A stretch of DNA of 64,000 nucleotides from Candidatus Obscuribacterales bacterium. Lineage in GTDB: Bacteria; Cyanobacteriota; Vampirovibrionia; Obscuribacterales; Obscuribacteraceae. Location of the stretch: assembly GCA_019637435.1 (NCBI GenBank), contig JAHBVO010000002.1, positions 186,001-250,000 on the forward strand, written 5' to 3'. The notes below the pieces were generated by a model that ran no database searches, was not told the DNA's origin, and saw nothing but the letters and a program-made list of their open reading frames with translations. The position numbers were made by a program, and so were the translations under genes. This document shows positions 1,588 through 9,199 of this stretch, piece by piece; within the stretch, counting starts at the first letter, position 1, and the number at the start of each line of letters is the position of its first letter.

Positions 1588-2904
1588 TCATGAAACGCCC
1601 GCTCGCATCGAGTCTGATGCGGCAGCCAGTTGTCGGGACGAATGAGCGCCTACTGTCAGCGGGCTTGTTACAGCAACGCATTCTGTTTCCTCCGGCAGTG
1701 AGATAAATTGGTCATGAAGAAGTTGGGTCGCGCGACTAGAATCGGCTTCATCTATGAGAATTGAAATGGTCGACTCGCTGCTTGAATAGAGTCGCGGTTC
1801 AATTCTTGCGGAATTCAGGGTGGCAATTGCGCGCGAGCGAATCTCAGGTGCATTGCCGATTCCCGCGCCGACGAGACTAACTCTAGTGACGTTCAAATCA
1901 ATGAGAACGTCTTTTGCTCCGCACTGATTTTTCAATTCGTCCAGAATCGTTCTAAAGATTGCTTCATCGGAATATCGCAATGAAAGCTGCACGCAGCGCG
2001 TGTTTTCGCAAGACCCTTTGCCTTGGGAAACACTGTCGACGATTATGTTGTCGCGAAGGAAGAGTGTCTCGCATTCTGTGAGGAACGAGAACTGCCAGGG
2101 AATATCGATGAATGATACGTATGCTTGATGCGAGTCTAATGCGACTCCTTTGACTCTACAAACCTTTTCCACGTTACTGTCTCCTGTAATGAGAGTGCCC
2201 GGATTGTCCGGTTTAAAAGTATTTCTGACGCGCAGCTTAATGTTGAAATCTCTGGCGAGTTCTGCGGCGCGCGGATGCAGGACCTGCGCGCCTGCTCGTG
2301 CGAGTTCAATTGTTTCCGAGTACGATATGGTGTCTAGCAATTCCGCTTGCGGAAATTTGTTAGGGTCGGTCGTGAATATTCCATCGACATCCGTGTAGAT
2401 GTGGCATTCATCAGCACCTGCGGCAGCAGCCAGGGCTACGGCCGAAGTATCGGAGCCGCCGCGACCGAGTGTTGTAATTTCGCCGCAATCGCTCTGTCCT
2501 TGAAACCCGGCCACAACGATCACGTCGTGCTCATCGAGAGCGGCACGAATAGAGCCTTTGCATATGTCAACGATGCGAGCGCAACTGTGGATGTTGTCGG
2601 TTTTAATTCCGATCTGGGCTCCGGTAAATGACTTTGCTTTTATTCCGCGTTCCTGTAACGCAATAGTCAGGAGTGCGATGGATACTTGTTCACCGGTGGA
2701 GAGCAGAAGGTCTACTTCGCGTTTGTTGGGAGTCGCTGAGATTCGTTTGGCCAGGTCGTACAGATAGTCTGTTGTATCGCCCATCGCCGATACAACCACT
2801 ACGCATTTATTTTTCTGTTTGGAAACGATGTCTACAACGTGATTGATGCGTCCGATGTTTTTGACGGATGTGCCACCAAATTTGAGAACCGAAATTTTGC
2901 TCAT
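1588..2904 (-). CDS. lysC: aspartate kinase
   Basis: Aspartokinase phosphorylates L-aspartate to 4-phospho-aspartate, the committed step toward lysine, threonine and methionine. The 438-residue protein begins with the family signature KFGGTSV at residues 8-14, has the amino-acid-kinase core to about residue 260 (GFQGQ, TLGRGGSDTSAVALAAA, YTDVDGIFTTDP), and ends with a tandem ACT-type regulatory region to about 425 (SLVGAGIG). GGAGGAG sits just before the ATG. It starts 8 bases after the upstream metB-like stop, so the two are one operon and should share the Met attenuator at 4211-4389. Feedback by lysine or threonine is expected of ACT-containing members but cannot be read here. Confidence 0.96.
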   Translation of the reverse strand: MSKISVLKFGGTSVKNIGRINHVVDIVSKQKNKCVVVVSAMGDTTDYLYDLAKRISATPNKREVDLLLSTGEQVSIALLTIALQERGIKAKSFTGAQIGIKTDNIHSCARIVDICKGSIRAALDEHDVIVVAGFQGQSDCGEITTLGRGGSDTSAVALAAAAGADECHIYTDVDGIFTTDPNKFPQAELLDTISYSETIELARAGAQVLHPRAAELARDFNIKLRVRNTFKPDNPGTLITGDSNVEKVCRVKGVALDSHQAYVSFIDIPWQFSFLTECETLFLRDNIIVDSVSQGKGSCENTRCVQLSLRYSDEAIFRTILDELKNQCGAKDVLIDLNVTRVSLVGAGIGNAPEIRSRAIATLNSARIEPRLYSSSESTISILIDEADSSRATQLLHDQFISLPEETECVAVTSPLTVGAHSSRQLAAASDSMRAGVS

Positions 2905-2912
2905 CGCTCCTC

Positions 2913-4181
2913 CTACCTTGTTTGCACGAGTGCACGTTCGGCGGCGCGAGTTTCCAACTTCGAATTTGCATCTGTGCCATTGTTGGTCAGGCTCTGCTGA
3001 TTGCCTGGTGAACCGGAAAGTGCCTGGTCGAGATCGGCGATCAAGTCTTCGGCTTCTTCGATGCCGGGCGATAGACGAATTAACCCGTCAACAATGCCGC
3101 AATGTTCTCGGATTTCTTTCGGTATCGGTTTGTGCGTCATCGTTGCTGGATGGCAGATTAGCGATTTAACTCCGCCGAGGCTTTCTGCCAGTTGGAATAG
3201 ATTCGTTGAGCTGACCGTATTTGCCGCGAAATCAATTCCGCCTTTGACGACGAAAGAAACCATTCCGCCGAAACCGCTCATCTGCTTTGCGGCTAGTTCG
3301 TGCTGCGGGTGGGTTGCTAAACCTGGATAGTGGACAGTTTCAACATTCGGATGCGATTCGAGAAACTTTGCAATCGCGAATGCATTTCGTTCATGTTCTC
3401 TCATTCGCAGTTTTAACGTCTTCAGTCCACGAAGGACAAGGAAGCAATCGAATGGTCCGGGAACCGCTCCAACAGCGTTGTTGTGGTACTGCAATCGTTC
3501 ATAAAGATCATCGCTCGAGGTGACGATGGCACCGCCAATGACATCACTATGTCCGCCCAGGTATTTTGTGGTGCTGTGAATTATGACGTCGGCGCCAAGT
3601 TCCAGTGGTCGTTGGAAATAGGGTGTAGCAAAAGTGTTATCGACGGCAAGGCGCAGCCCATTTGCATGACAGAGGTCGGCGATCGTTCTTATGTCCGCTA
3701 ATCGAAGCAATGGATTCGTCGGTGTTTCGATCCAGACCAATCGAGTTTTTTCGTTTATAGCCTGTTCAATTTCTTCAATGTTGCGTGCGTTCACGTAGGT
3801 GAATGATAAACCGTAGCGTGTTAAAACTTGCTCGAAGAGCCTGTAGACGCCTCCATAGACATCCTCTCCCACGATGACGTGATCGCCTGCCGACAACAAG
3901 TTTGTAACTGTATAAGCCGCGGATAAACCGGATGCGGATGCGAGTGCATACTTGGCGTTTTCCAGTGACGCAATACATTGTTCCAATGCGGTTCTTGTCG
4001 GATTGTGCGTGCGAGCGTATTGATACCCTTTGTTTACTCCAAGTTCGTCCAGGACGAATGTGGAAGTTTGAAATATTGGCGTGTTCAAAGCGCCTGTGCT
4101 CGGGTCCGCGTCTTGACCCGCATGAATAGCGCGAGTCGAGAATTGCTGCTGGTTGTTTGGATATTGGTTGTAAACACTCAT
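2913..4181 (-). CDS. metB: Cys/Met-metabolism PLP enzyme, probably cystathionine gamma-synthase
   Basis: A fold-type I PLP enzyme of the Cys/Met metabolism family (422 residues). The Schiff-base lysine is K206 in the signature STTKYLGGHSD. Also visible are the phosphate-binding SASGLSA region, YARTHNPT, and the C-terminal LSPGIE motif. Family members are cystathionine gamma-synthase, gamma-lyase, beta-lyase and O-acetylhomoserine sulfhydrylase, which cannot be told apart reliably by eye. The operon with lysC and the Met-codon leader upstream argue for methionine synthesis. The last ~35 residues (from SGSPGNQQ) are a polar extension beyond the usual end. CAGGAG lies at a good distance before the ATG. 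Confidence 0.9.
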   Translation of the reverse strand: MSVYNQYPNNQQQFSTRAIHAGQDADPSTGALNTPIFQTSTFVLDELGVNKGYQYARTHNPTRTALEQCIASLENAKYALASASGLSAAYTVTNLLSAGDHVIVGEDVYGGVYRLFEQVLTRYGLSFTYVNARNIEEIEQAINEKTRLVWIETPTNPLLRLADIRTIADLCHANGLRLAVDNTFATPYFQRPLELGADVIIHSTTKYLGGHSDVIGGAIVTSSDDLYERLQYHNNAVGAVPGPFDCFLVLRGLKTLKLRMREHERNAFAIAKFLESHPNVETVHYPGLATHPQHELAAKQMSGFGGMVSFVVKGGIDFAANTVSSTNLFQLAESLGGVKSLICHPATMTHKPIPKEIREHCGIVDGLIRLSPGIEEAEDLIADLDQALSGSPGNQQSLTNNGTDANSKLETRAAERALVQTR

Positions 4182-4210
4182 TGGCGTAACTCCTGTGTGT
4201 GTGAATGCGT

Positions 4211-4241
4211 AAAAACGCCCCCTCTCATCCGAGAGGGGGCG
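4211..4241 (-). terminator. intrinsic terminator in the metB-lysC leader (attenuator)
   Basis: On the minus strand an 11-bp perfect stem (CGCCCCCTCTC at 4241-4231 pairing with GAGAGGGGGCG at 4226-4216) closes a GGAT loop and is followed at once by TTTTT (4215-4211). This is a textbook Rho-independent terminator, yet it lies only 30 bases upstream of the metB start codon and downstream of the promoter, so transcription must pass it to reach the genes. Its 5' arm is also complementary to an upstream segment at 4297-4309. Confidence 0.9.
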
Positions 4242-4317
4242 CTGAAGTTCTTGATTCTGTTAGCTAATTTCTTATGCTATAAACCGTGAACAGCAACGCC
4301 ACCCTCTCGCGGAGGGC
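4216..4317 (-). promoter_or_regulatory. mutually exclusive attenuator stems upstream of metB-lysC
   Basis: Four pairing segments can be read on the minus strand. Segment 1 is GCCCTCC (4317-4311), segment 2 CGAGAGGGTGGCG (4309-4297), segment 3 CGCCCCCTCTC(G) (4241-4230), segment 4 GAGAGGGGGCG (4226-4216). Segments 1 and 2 can form a small hairpin (CCCTC/GAGGG). Segments 3 and 4 form the terminator. Segments 2 and 3 can instead pair over 12 bp with a single bulged T, forming an antiterminator that would destroy the terminator. Segments 1 and 2 lie inside the Met-rich leader ORF, just after its Met codons, which is the geometry of ribosome-mediated attenuation. Confidence 0.75.
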
Positions 4318-4355
4318 ATTTGCATTGCCATAGACATAGTCACGTGTTTTTGCAT
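4272..4355 (-). CDS. methionine-rich leader peptide of the metB-lysC operon
   Basis: A 27-codon ORF with ATG at 4355-4353 and TAA at 4274-4272 whose first 13 residues are MQKHVTMSMAMQM, giving five Met codons among the first 13 and four at alternate codons 7, 9, 11 and 13. The run ends exactly where pairing segment 1 of the attenuator begins. The remaining codons cover segments 1 and 2 and contain no Met. No Shine-Dalgarno precedes the ATG. With the -10 box CATAAT at 4367-4362 the predicted transcript start falls on the A of this ATG, so the leader would be translated from a leaderless mRNA. The role as a Met-sensing leader peptide is inferred. Confidence 0.7.
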   Translation of the reverse strand: MQKHVTMSMAMQMPSARGWRCCSRFIA

Positions 4356-4361
4356 GCCACC

Positions 4362-4389
4362 ATTATGGTCGAACAAAAATGTTTGTCAA
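4362..4389 (-). promoter_or_regulatory. sigma-70-type promoter of the metB-lysC operon
   Basis: On the minus strand TTGACA (4389-4384, perfect -35) is followed after 16 bases by CATAAT (4367-4362, five of six matches to TATAAT). The expected start of transcription is at about 4355, the first base of the Met-rich leader ORF. The promoter lies in the gap after the first LRR kinase gene, so metB-lysC has its own transcription unit. Confidence 0.7.
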
Positions 4390-4487: not shown

Positions 4488-6701
4488 CTAGAGTTTGGAC
4501 TGCGCTGAGATAATGAAGTCCATTGGATCCTTGTCTTCACTTTTTAGTGACGTAGCATTTATGCACTCTGTCATTAATCCGCATTTTGGAAGAGCTGCGC
4601 GAATTCGAGCCTCGGTCGCTTCAGTCATGTTGCTATATAGAATGCCTGTTTGAGTCAGTTTTCGCAGACCGAGCAGAGTATGGTAAATCGCCTTCTCTGA
4701 TGCTTTGATGTGACTGAGGTGTAATGCCTCCAACTTTTTCAGCTTACCAATTACTTCCAGATCATTATCATCGAGTGGAATGCCTCCCAGGCTGAGCTGC
4801 TGCAGATTTGGGCATTTTGCTATCAGGGGCACTGTGGCGCGAGTTGTTTTTGTGCCGCTCAGCCCCAGGGCTTTCATTTTGACGCCCTTTTCACTTGCCA
4901 CCATTGCCACCGTTTTATCAGTGATGCCCGGACAATCATTCAGTTGTAAGTCGTTCAGTTTCGGAAGTGACAGGAGCGTTTCTACGCAATCATCATCACA
5001 GGGCGTTGAGTTTAGTACGATAGCTTCAAGTGTCCGAGATCCGCTAAGCATTTTGATACCGCCCCTGGTGATATCAGTGATGCCGACGCTCAAAAATTTG
5101 AGCTTGGGAAAGCGGCACAGTTCTGCTACGACTTCCGGGCTAATATTTTTGCAGTTATCTAGATAAAGCGAATGAAGATTTTTCATCTTCTTGAGCTTTC
5201 GAATTTTGGCAAGGGTGATGTTGGTATCTTGCAGCGCCAGCTTTTCAATGTTATCCAACTTGACCAGTTCTGCGAAGCCTGCGTCAGTCAGGTTTGTCGC
5301 TGACAAGTCCAGGATTGTGACATTGGGCGTTCTGAGGTACTTCAATCCGGTTCCAGTTATTGAAGTGTGGTTCAAACTTACTGGAAGAATTTTGTCTTTG
5401 TATGTGTAATTTTGGAAGCAAATTAATTCTTCATCTCTAAGCAATGTCGAGTTGTACGGCGTATAGTGCTGCTTAGGTGAGCGCTCCATGTAATCGGAGT
5501 CGCCGCTCGAGTGGAAAAAATTGCTGATTTTCTTTGGTTTTTCCGTTATCGGTTTGATCTTGATCGAACCTATGTCGTCCAGCCCCGACGACTCTACTTT
5601 TGCGCTCTTTATCGACTTCTCGTGACGTTTAAATCCGGAGGCGGCTTTAGCTGCACCGCTATGAGGATCGTGAAGGACAAAAGCTGCAAGCCCGAACGCC
5701 GCCGCGAGTATTCCGCCAACCGCGACAACTGGAAGGGCGGCATGGATGACTCTCAGCGTCATGAATACTTTGTCGCGCTTCGTCGACTCGGTTTTTGCAC
5801 CGCCAGCGGTGCTATCCGGTTTCGCTTCCAAACCATGCTTCACTCGCGAAAGCGTCTCCCTGACTTCGATGACACTTTGCGGTCGATCTTTCGGATCTTT
5901 CGAAAGCATCGAGTCAAGCAAACGGTCCAGCTGCTCAGGAATTTCCCATGCGGGTGCCAGTTCCGAAAGTAGTGGTGGCTGTTCATCAATGTGCTGGCGA
6001 AGCAGGTCAAAAATATCTTCGCTGTAAAACGGTGTCTCGCCGGCTATCATTCGAAAGGCGATGCAAGCTAAGCCGTAAATATCGGAGCGTTCGTCACCCA
6101 GTCGACCTTGCGCCTGTTCCGGACTCATGAACAGCGGGCTCCCGATTGCGGCTCCTGTGTCTGTTCTCGATTTCTCCTGATCGGGATCTTTGGCAAGACC
6201 GAAGTCCACTACAACCGCAAGCGGTTCAGTTTCAAAATTTTGCACCATTATATTCGACGTCTTCAAATCTCGATGAGCGATGTTCTTCGAATGCGCGCTC
6301 TTCAATCCGTCGCAGATCTGAATCAGCAGATTGAGCGCCAAAGGCAGGGGAAGGCGCCCTTCTTGATCAATAATCTCGTCAAGACTTTTTCCATCGACGA
6401 AACTCATAATAAGGTAGGCTCGATTCTTGTGAGTCTTGCCAAAGTTGAGAATCGAAACCAGGTTTGGATGATCTAGCTTGGCGGCGGACTTCGCTTCCTT
6501 TTGAAAGCTGATCAAGCCGCGTTCATCTATATGGCGTAAAACCTTGATAGCGACTCGCTTGTCAAGGTTGCTGTCGTGTGCGCTGAATACTGATGCCGTG
6601 GCGCCGCTGGAAATGTAAGTAATATCGCTGTATCGAGAACCTAGAGCCGACGCGACATCGTCAGGCATCTGGTTTGGATTGAGGCTTGTGATAGCTCTCA
6701 A
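4488..6701 (-). CDS. transmembrane Ser/Thr protein kinase with C-terminal leucine-rich repeats (copy 1)
   Basis: A 737-residue protein. A Hanks-type kinase domain spans about residues 26-285 with VAIK lysine K53, HRDLKTSN at about 143, DFG at 166-168 and MSPEQ in place of APE. A transmembrane segment follows at about 320-343, then ~400 residues with at least eight leucine-rich repeats (LxxLxLxxT/C-xI) resembling Cys-containing LRRs. The kinase should be cytoplasmic and the repeats outside the membrane. The Gly-rich loop reads SSGATASVF, so its first glycine is Ser. The start is uncertain: a TTG at 6699-6701 has GAGGAA seven bases before it; an ATG at 6668 would align with copy 3, and the frame is open to 6797. 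Confidence 0.9.
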   Translation of the reverse strand: MRAITSLNPNQMPDDVASALGSRYSDITYISSGATASVFSAHDSNLDKRVAIKVLRHIDERGLISFQKEAKSAAKLDHPNLVSILNFGKTHKNRAYLIMSFVDGKSLDEIIDQEGRLPLPLALNLLIQICDGLKSAHSKNIAHRDLKTSNIMVQNFETEPLAVVVDFGLAKDPDQEKSRTDTGAAIGSPLFMSPEQAQGRLGDERSDIYGLACIAFRMIAGETPFYSEDIFDLLRQHIDEQPPLLSELAPAWEIPEQLDRLLDSMLSKDPKDRPQSVIEVRETLSRVKHGLEAKPDSTAGGAKTESTKRDKVFMTLRVIHAALPVVAVGGILAAAFGLAAFVLHDPHSGAAKAASGFKRHEKSIKSAKVESSGLDDIGSIKIKPITEKPKKISNFFHSSGDSDYMERSPKQHYTPYNSTLLRDEELICFQNYTYKDKILPVSLNHTSITGTGLKYLRTPNVTILDLSATNLTDAGFAELVKLDNIEKLALQDTNITLAKIRKLKKMKNLHSLYLDNCKNISPEVVAELCRFPKLKFLSVGITDITRGGIKMLSGSRTLEAIVLNSTPCDDDCVETLLSLPKLNDLQLNDCPGITDKTVAMVASEKGVKMKALGLSGTKTTRATVPLIAKCPNLQQLSLGGIPLDDNDLEVIGKLKKLEALHLSHIKASEKAIYHTLLGLRKLTQTGILYSNMTEATEARIRAALPKCGLMTECINATSLKSEDKDPMDFIISAQSKL

Positions 6702-7054
6702 AATGGGGTTCCTCGGGACTCTAGGGTTTCGAAGGCATAGTCGCAGCCGAGCAAAGCTCATGCGAATACGCAATGCTGTACCAGAAATATATTCCACGGG
6801 TATATCGGTTTTTCGCGTCTAAATTTTGCCCGAAATCCAGAAGAGGCAAGGGCGCCCGGATTTCGATCATTAAACTTTCACGCGGCGTTAAGACCACAAC
6901 GTTTAGTTGAATAAAGACTACGAGCCAGTCGCCTATTAACTACCAAATGTGATCGATAAGTTGAGTGACAGGGTCACTTTCGTAAACGTTACCGACCATC
7001 AGTAAAACGACGATTCTGCTAACGACGTTTCACGCCTATGATTTCACGGAGCGT
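6702..7054. other. gap between LRR-kinase genes with two inverted repeats
   Basis: No convincing gene. It holds an 8-bp inverted repeat CGAAATCC/GGATTTCG (6831-6838 and 6858-6865) whose loop contains the palindrome GGGCGCCC, placed in the leader of the downstream kinase gene, and a hairpin AGTGAC-AGG-GTCACT (6964-6978) about 75 bases after the stop of the upstream kinase gene. Neither has a U tract. The reading frame of the downstream kinase stays open to 6797, so part of this gap may be coding. Confidence 0.5.
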
Positions 7055-9199
7055 TCACTGGGGCTGTATCATCTCTAAGTAATCTTCTACATTGTCACCG
7101 TTTTTGGGTTTGTTGCCCGGCGTCATAAACATGCAGCCTTGCCAACGTTTGCGGAGTTCATCGATTGCTTCTTCCGGCGCGTCGATCGAAAGTATATAAA
7201 TTTTGCGCATGTTTTTTAGCTTGTATAAATGAGCGATTCCCTCCGCCGAACACTTAACTTCGCCTATGTATAGATACTTTAGTTCGGGAAGATCTCCAAA
7301 AACTTTCATCTGCGCATCGCCGATAAGCACTCCCGGTATTTCTATGAATGACAGTCTTTTGCATTTCTCCAGACAAGCAAGATCCTCAGGTTGTGTGTTA
7401 GTTGCGCCAAATCCGATAAGCTGAAGATTTGGAAGTGCATCCGTAATTGCTTTCAGAGTTTTGCCCGTCAATTTTTCGCAGCGATTCAAGCGGACATCGA
7501 TCAGATTCGGCAGCGTGAATAGTGGCTCTATTCCCGCGTCTGTGAGGTCGGCTCCATCAAGTTGAACTGTGACGAGGTTGGTGCAATTTGTCAAACAAGA
7601 TGCGCCTTTGTCTGTGACTTTCGATTTCTTATCACGCGCAACAAGAACAAGAAGAGATTTGATTCTCGAAACCTCTTCCATCATCTCATCATTCAAGTTT
7701 CGATTGGTATCGAGGCCCAGTTCCATTAACTTTGGCAGGCGAGATAGCAGGCGCATTTCTTTCGCGCTCACATTCGTACTTGCCAGAGTCACTGCGTGCA
7801 AATTGTTCAAGCTCGCGAGAGTCTCGTACCCGATAGGTTGTAGGTTTGTGTAATTCAGCTCCAGGCAGAGGTTTGGAATATGGGCCAGATATTTGAGGCC
7901 CTCTCCGGTTATATTGGAGGCAAAGCTCAAATTGATGTTGGATGTGGGAAGGGCTTGACCGTCGAAAACTTCCAGATCTGCATCTGTTAAACTGCCGGCG
8001 TCTTTTGCCGCAAGTTGGTCCCAGTCCAGATGACTCATGAATACAGCGTTTTCGAAACGAAACAAGCGGTCAAGTTTCTCCGCTTTTGTTTCCACCTTTA
8101 TCGTCTCCGCAGGTTTTCCCTCCAGCAATTGATAAGTTATTAAACCAAGAGCTGATACTACCAGCAGTGCCCCTATCACTACAGGAAGAATGAGTTTGGA
8201 ACGCCTCCGTCGCTTAACCGGTGTGTGGGCGATTCGGACTAGCGGGGTTTGTCCGGCTGCAGGCTGCGCCATACGCTGGCGTTGAATCTCAAGCAAAGCT
8301 TCTTTTACTTCTTTGATAGACTGAAACCGCTCAGTCGGATCTTTCTCCAGCATTTGATCGAGCAAGGGTTGAAGCAGAGGATCGAAATGCAGATGTGGTG
8401 CGGCGTCTGTGAGTCGCGGAGGATTATCTTCAATGTGCTGACGGAGAAGTTCGAACAAATCATCCGACTCGAAAACATATTTACCGGTGATTGCTCGAAA
8501 AATGATGCACCCAAATGAGTATATGTCCGAGCGTTCATCTCCGTGTAAACCTTTAGCCTGTTCCGGACTTATGAATCGAGGCGTACCGCGTAACTTTCCG
8601 CTGGACGACCCCTGTCTGGTTTTGTCCTGCGTTTTTCGCTCCCTTGCTAAACCGAAGTCGACAACTACCGCGTTCACTCCGTCGGTTCCAAAGTTTTGGA
8701 TGATTATGTTTGATGTTTTCAAATCTCTGTGCGCAATTTTCTTGCTGTGCGAATGAATCATTCCTTCGCATATTTGCAAAAAAATTGGTAGAGCGGTATC
8801 GAATTTGAGAGGACCGTGCTCTTCGATCAGGTCCTCGAACTCAACTCCTTCCACGAAATCCATGATCAAATAAGCATGGTTTTTCGACGTTATACCAAAG
8901 TTCAGCGTTGCCACGAGATTTCGATGATCGAGCTTGCAGGCGGTTTTTGCTTCGTGCTGAAAATTCATGAGTCGATGCTCGTCAGCGTTCGACAATAGTT
9001 TAATAGCAACGCGTTTATCGAGATTTCGATCCAGAGCGCTAAACACTGAGCTGGTCGCGCCACTCGAAATATATTCTATGTTTGCGAAGCGCCCTGCTCC
9101 AAGCGCATCGAGCACATCCTGCGGCAATTCACGTTGGTTGAAAACTTCTTCTGTCTCTGAAGCTCTCGATTCGATATCTGAATTTGGATCCGCGTTCAT
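7055..9199 (-). CDS. transmembrane Ser/Thr protein kinase with C-terminal leucine-rich repeats (copy 2)
   Basis: A 714-residue paralogue of the neighbouring kinase, same architecture: polar N-terminus of ~40 residues, kinase domain about 41-305 (K67 in VAIK, HRDLKTSN at 157, DFG at 181-183, ISPEQ), basic stretch KRRRRSK, transmembrane segment 336-358, then leucine-rich repeats to about 690. The Gly-rich loop is again SSGATSSVF. Its ATG overlaps the stop of the nucleoside hydrolase gene by four bases (ATGA), so the two are cotranscribed and probably translationally coupled. The ligand read by the repeats is unknown. Confidence 0.93.
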   Translation of the reverse strand: MNADPNSDIESRASETEEVFNQRELPQDVLDALGAGRFANIEYISSGATSSVFSALDRNLDKRVAIKLLSNADEHRLMNFQHEAKTACKLDHRNLVATLNFGITSKNHAYLIMDFVEGVEFEDLIEEHGPLKFDTALPIFLQICEGMIHSHSKKIAHRDLKTSNIIIQNFGTDGVNAVVVDFGLARERKTQDKTRQGSSSGKLRGTPRFISPEQAKGLHGDERSDIYSFGCIIFRAITGKYVFESDDLFELLRQHIEDNPPRLTDAAPHLHFDPLLQPLLDQMLEKDPTERFQSIKEVKEALLEIQRQRMAQPAAGQTPLVRIAHTPVKRRRRSKLILPVVIGALLVVSALGLITYQLLEGKPAETIKVETKAEKLDRLFRFENAVFMSHLDWDQLAAKDAGSLTDADLEVFDGQALPTSNINLSFASNITGEGLKYLAHIPNLCLELNYTNLQPIGYETLASLNNLHAVTLASTNVSAKEMRLLSRLPKLMELGLDTNRNLNDEMMEEVSRIKSLLVLVARDKKSKVTDKGASCLTNCTNLVTVQLDGADLTDAGIEPLFTLPNLIDVRLNRCEKLTGKTLKAITDALPNLQLIGFGATNTQPEDLACLEKCKRLSFIEIPGVLIGDAQMKVFGDLPELKYLYIGEVKCSAEGIAHLYKLKNMRKIYILSIDAPEEAIDELRKRWQGCMFMTPGNKPKNGDNVEDYLEMIQPQ

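Follow-up and report, generated by a model that had tools for sequence, protein, structure and literature searches.

A probable methionine-specific, ribosome-mediated attenuator ahead of metB-lysC in Obscuribacterales

A short Met-rich open reading frame followed by a strong terminator ahead of metB and lysC in an Obscuribacterales genome raises the question of whether ribosome-mediated attenuation can respond to methionine. Met seems awkward for this kind of control because starvation also blocks initiation and because an untranslated leader terminates. We analyzed the surrounding stretch of 64,000 nucleotides (the window) together with related genomes, and the sequence comparisons make it very probable that the element is a Met-specific ribosome-mediated transcription attenuator of metB-lysC. 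The sequence-only reading had proposed the same, and it is supported by 25 leaders with Met codons and a terminator and by co-varying helices. The features of the locus, with the basis of each assignment in brackets, are as follows.

4362..4389, minus strand: promoter of the sigma-70 type, TTGACA-16-CATAAT (sequence and homologous leaders)
4272..4355, minus strand: Met-rich leader ORF of 27 codons (sequence and frame bias over 25 genomes)
4317..4337, minus strand: control codons Met7, Met9, Met11 and Met13 (same position relative to segment 2 in homologues)
4312..4331, minus strand: segment 1, overlapping the Met codons, partner of segment 2 (pairing and covariation)
4288..4309, minus strand: segment 2, partner of segment 1 or, as antiterminator, of segment 3 (pairing and covariation)
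4230..4250, minus strand: segment 3, which pairs with segment 2 in the antiterminator and provides, with its 3' part, the 5' arm of the terminator (pairing and covariation)
4211..4241, minus strand: intrinsic terminator, segments 3:4 and U tract, about -24 kcal/mol (sequence and covariation)
4190..4194, minus strand: Shine-Dalgarno site of metB, AGGAG (sequence)
2913..4181, minus strand: metB, cystathionine gamma-synthase (NCBIfam NF005871 above cut-off, PF01053)
1588..2904, minus strand: lysC, aspartate kinase (NCBIfam NF005154 and NF005155 above cut-off; follows metB in relatives)

The promoter, with its -35 box TTGACA at 4389-4384, a 16-nt spacer and its -10 box CATAAT at 4367-4362, matches 11 of 12 consensus bases. 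The leader ORF starts with the ATG at 4355-4353, encodes MQKHVTMSMAMQMPSARGWRCCSRFIA* and ends at 4272, and its Met codons are codons 1, 7, 9, 11 and 13. Both the promoter and the 27-codon ORF with five Met codons among the first 13 had been described from the sequence alone and were confirmed to the base. That description did not contain the distance between the -10 box and the leader AUG, which amounts to 6 nt and makes a Shine-Dalgarno site impossible at this AUG; the ORF is probably leaderless. When the window was scanned for open 13-codon stretches beginning with ATG, 1,353 were obtained, and at least four further in-frame ATGs occurred in two of them, namely the metB leader and a stretch at +24483 that was inspected briefly.

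The terminator consists of an 11-bp stem (4241-4231 with 4226-4216) and five T residues at 4215-4211, and the ATG of metB at 4181 lies about 30 nt downstream of this T-run, in agreement with the earlier claim of a strong terminator some 30 bases before metB. The terminator 5' arm pairs with 4309-4297, as predicted, and the full antiterminator is even longer, extending to about 4288 with an energy of -35.7 kcal/mol, which was equalled by 3 of 20,000 random window segments and by 0 of 20,000 shuffles. The leader folded better than 200 of 200 dinucleotide shuffles (z = -6.45). NCBIfam identified as metB and lysC the two downstream genes, which had been read as a Cys/Met PLP enzyme and an aspartokinase, and these genes of the methionine/aspartate family match the pathway of the amino acid that would be sensed. 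The locus therefore combines what defines an attenuator: clustered codons for the end product, a terminator before the first gene, an antiterminator that excludes this terminator and arises from a stretch following directly on the control codons, and a 1:2 protector hairpin that includes the control codons. Upstream of the leader, the minus strand carries a tandem pair of similar Ser/Thr protein kinases (4488-6797 and 7055-9199), both apparently with C-terminal leucine-rich repeats.

Is this arrangement kept in relatives? Searching related genomes at the protein level yielded metB orthologues, and reading their upstream regions revealed the same element at 14 loci. A model built from these leaders and run on 53 genomes of the order gave strong matches (E < 1e-14) in 25 of them, located before metB in 24 cases and directly before lysC in one (genome G005). 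In all 25 leaders -35 and -10 boxes are present with a spacer of 16-18 nt (16 nt in 20 leaders), and the -10 box is separated from the ATG by 6-7 nt. The sequence-only reading had named as the outcome that would speak against it any relatives in which the Met codons or the alternative pairing are missing. No such relatives were encountered: each of the 25 keeps a terminator and an ORF of 22-31 codons, whose leader frame contains 3-8 Met codons immediately ahead of segment 2, and three helices co-vary between genera. A script detected the terminator in 23 leaders; in the other two the automatic gene start lies inside the leader, and the model match covers the terminator. The leader co-occurs with the metB orthologue, and a same-genus genome (G001) with no close metB orthologue is also without the leader. 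Downstream of metB, lysC was found at every locus long enough to judge, and hom followed closely in 2 genomes. At the G005 locus (L136, contig C214) the lysC ORF after the Met leader is extended at its N-terminus by about 70 residues, and no metB lies between.

In the genomes examined, no Met leader was seen before metH or hom; Met control would therefore be limited to a narrow set of targets, a point against the attenuator reading. The leader was also absent from the inspected upstream regions of a second CGS-like paralogue; the CBS-domain protein encoded ahead of this paralogue may be similar to cystathionine beta-synthase. In 10 genomes metX was not found above its cut-off. In-frame Met-x-Met matches in G006, G008, G010, G016 and G018 were judged to be chance or ordinary genes.

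Promoter, ORF and Met codons are thus apparent by sequence and comparison, and so is a constraint on the reading frame. After the start codon and within the first 15 codons, ATG triplets of the 25 genomes number 91 in the leader frame and 0 and 0 in the other two frames, where the 91 come from related genomes and are not independent events, and no genome deviates. Unlike this in-frame ATG bias, the frame at the end of the leader ORF is not conserved. Covariation of the helices was studied in a swap test, in which segments were exchanged among 12 genus representatives with 20,000 permutations. Own segments paired with -23.0 kcal/mol for 1:2, -24.8 for 2:3 and -19.8 for 3:4, compared to -18.5, -19.0 and -13.6 kcal/mol, respectively, for swapped segments, and in each case 0 of 20,000 permutations reached the own value. 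The control pairings 1:3 (about 10%) and 2:4 (about 9%) showed no effect in these 12 genera. When pairs were counted explicitly in 14 leaders, the values exceeded those of shuffles and slid controls in most measures, both for the proportion of cells that are paired and for the covariation score. RNAalifold on a MAFFT alignment recovered the terminator alone, because two structures share segment 2 and some rows are misaligned by MAFFT; for this reason we relied on swap tests and on counting pairs explicitly. These comparisons indicate that the three rival helices (1:2, 2:3 and 3:4) co-vary between genera.

From these features we infer a start site, translation, stalling and a response to Met-tRNA. 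RNA polymerase would start at the leader AUG or within one base of it, and a ribosome would load at the leaderless 5' end of the transcript. If charged elongator Met-tRNA were scarce, the ribosome would stall at Met codons 7-13 and cover segment 1, leaving segment 2 free to pair with segment 3, and the resulting antiterminator would allow readthrough into metB-lysC. With plentiful Met-tRNA the ribosome would enter segment 2, the 3:4 terminator would form and transcription would stop about 30 nt before metB. In an untranslated leader the 1:2 hairpin would leave 3:4 free and lead to termination. An objection to Met attenuation is that Met starvation would also lower fMet-tRNA and hence initiation at the leader, favoring termination. 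Also, segment 2 would be incompletely covered by a ribosome released at the stop codon, because this codon lies after segment 2. Folding of the window's leader with a ribosome mask gave terminator probabilities of 0.32 for a stall at the Met codons, 0.97 for a ribosome in segment 2 and 0.97 for one at the stop codon, and the corresponding means over genomes were 0.57, 0.94 and 0.91. In this equilibrium model, which does not include co-transcriptional kinetics, the antiterminator was clearly favored in only about half of the genomes, a shortfall that reflects a limit either of the mask model or of the attenuation claim.

Nascent-chain arrest is known for plant CGS1/MTO1 and for TnaC, and an arrest peptide might likewise act here, in that a nascent Met-x-Met-x-Met chain together with a bound metabolite (SAM or Met), rather than a shortage of Met-tRNA, would stall the ribosome and set the switch. 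The M-x-M-x-M pattern is indeed kept in homologues, and the plant CGS1 case concerns the very enzyme that is encoded downstream here. However, the residues between the leader Mets are free to vary (S, T, A, Q, L, V, P, N), in genome G007 the Met pair lies at codons 13 and 15 rather than at 7-13 and still adjoins segment 2, and stalling at an abundant end product would turn the genes on, which is the wrong direction. We consider this explanation improbable.

The strong and conserved alternative structures, for which there is no characterised regulator, might also be operated by an undescribed riboswitch or RNA-binding protein, the ORF being incidental to the 1:2 / 2:3 / 3:4 switch. An Rfam scan of the window revealed no family, including RF00162 and RF00230, and primary sequence and loops differ between genera whereas pairing and Met codons are kept. 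An incidental ORF is also hard to reconcile with the restriction of ATG to the leader frame (91:0:0), and we regard this possibility as very improbable. The hairpin taken by itself could be explained by a terminator alone, that is, by an unregulated constitutive terminator or a small-RNA gene before metB. Yet covariation links the antiterminator to the terminator across 12 genera, and no promoter-like site that could serve metB was found between the terminator and the gene, which leaves this last explanation with hardly any probability.

How does such an attenuator compare to known systems? Classical trp, his, leu, thr, ilv and phe leaders likewise consist of a promoter, a short ORF rich in codons for the end product, mutually exclusive 1:2, 2:3 and 3:4 helices and a terminator ahead of a biosynthetic operon, and since the metB leader has the same anatomy, it is of a kind already known. 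It differs from them in the predicted sensing of Met, in its probably leaderless ORF and in its occurrence in non-photosynthetic Cyanobacteriota. Leader peptide systems were known by 2010 only in Proteobacteria and Actinobacteria, to which a His case in Firmicutes was added (PMC2965389). In Streptomyces lividans, metL before metNIQ encodes a leaderless leader peptide for which Met dependence was proposed (PMC8079986) and is similar in that a leaderless peptide with Met codons precedes Met genes. There, however, the genes serve Met transport, only two internal Mets are present, termination is unclear and a Rho-independent terminator is lacking (PMC8079986), whereas the metB element has biosynthetic genes, a Met cluster, a strong terminator and a co-varying antiterminator. 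Beyond S. lividans metL, itself a weak claim, no other claim of a Met leader was found in the open literature, and no conserved regulatory RNA structures were detected upstream of Met operons in a survey of Actinobacteria (PMC1262725). The leader ORF of Sinorhizobium meliloti trpL also starts at the transcript 5' end (PMC7298713), but that leader is Trp-specific, precedes trp genes and belongs to another lineage. S-box (SAM-I) and T-box elements control Met-pathway genes of other bacteria by transcription attenuation too, whereas the metB element would sense by translating Met codons. The mechanism is well known; what would set this case apart is the Met specificity, the lineage and the leaderless start.

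Further candidate leaders were obtained with a promoter-plus-ATG pattern search that required a gap of 6-7 nt by design, the downstream genes being checked with NCBIfam. In the genome that contains the window, thrS is preceded by a probable leaderless ORF that includes Thr codons (..NKTTSTR.., MHIHFPNFNKTTSTRV...; L173, G000:C6:458100-460600, leader at 213). Similar leaders precede serS (..FSSSSSPT; L174, G006:C59), proS (..RPPATPE..; L175, G012:C23) and cysD (MQNQRQSICMCMCMNCRKSRRVCHCACMC, with ..CMCMCMNC..; L172, G009:C60, leader at 223), each of the four being found in one genome. The leaders of thrS, serS and proS thus contain codons for the amino acid that the respective synthetase handles, which favors the attenuator reading of the metB element. 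The thrS, proS and cysD leaders contain a terminator and a competing pairing, both strong terminator and antiterminator being seen for cysD, and the competing pairing of serS is weak. The cysD leader is possibly a combined Cys/Met attenuator. A leader MNNRLMRNCHMFLTPRGGLRMRVRMH with terminator and antiterminator was seen before a pyridoxal-dependent decarboxylase (L183, G010:C30). Leaders at L182, L184, L185 and L191, some with a common YMQPT.I, lie before a DrrA-like ABC transporter ATPase and possibly sense ribosome-targeting drugs. The promoter-plus-ATG pattern also fell on the start codons of apparent aspartate carbamoyltransferase genes (L176, L177, L179) and MerR-like regulator genes (L180, L186), which suggests leaderless mRNAs kept across genera.

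When the leader search was extended to 386 genomes of the phylum, full-length Met-leader matches appeared in a family of small genomes of the same class other than the window's family, probably the gut Gastranaerophilales, as we presume. This second Met leader, present at 11 loci (L221-L231, e.g., MIYTNTMMMQMMMQSLIRGGHCCANRMC and L221:4441-4613), combines a promoter and an AAAGGA-like site with a terminator and an antiterminator, the bases of the latter changing together across the 11 loci, and the Met run of its peptide is highly conserved (NTMMMQMMMQSL..GGHC.A.RMC). The presumed target is a protein of about 420-460 residues, conserved with 64-74% identity among these loci, for which no family match was found in Pfam, NCBIfam or PDB sequences. 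We regard the element as a candidate attenuator in which the Met-rich leader has a Shine-Dalgarno site.

We lean towards the view that Met attenuation is widespread in Vampirovibrionia, in a leaderless version before metB-lysC in one order and in a Shine-Dalgarno version before a protein of unknown function in another family, within a wider set of Thr, Ser, Pro and Cys/Met leaders that may replace T-boxes and SAM riboswitches. If the metB reading is true, attenuation is able to respond to the very amino acid with which every protein begins, and a conserved Met attenuator would mean that evolution has solved the initiation problem. This raises the question of whether elongator and initiator tRNA-Met deplete differently or whether the leaderless start matters. 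In a lineage where neither the SAM-I riboswitch RF00162 nor the T-box RF00230 was found in 53 genomes of the order, the metB leader would provide a first control mechanism for sulfur amino acid genes.
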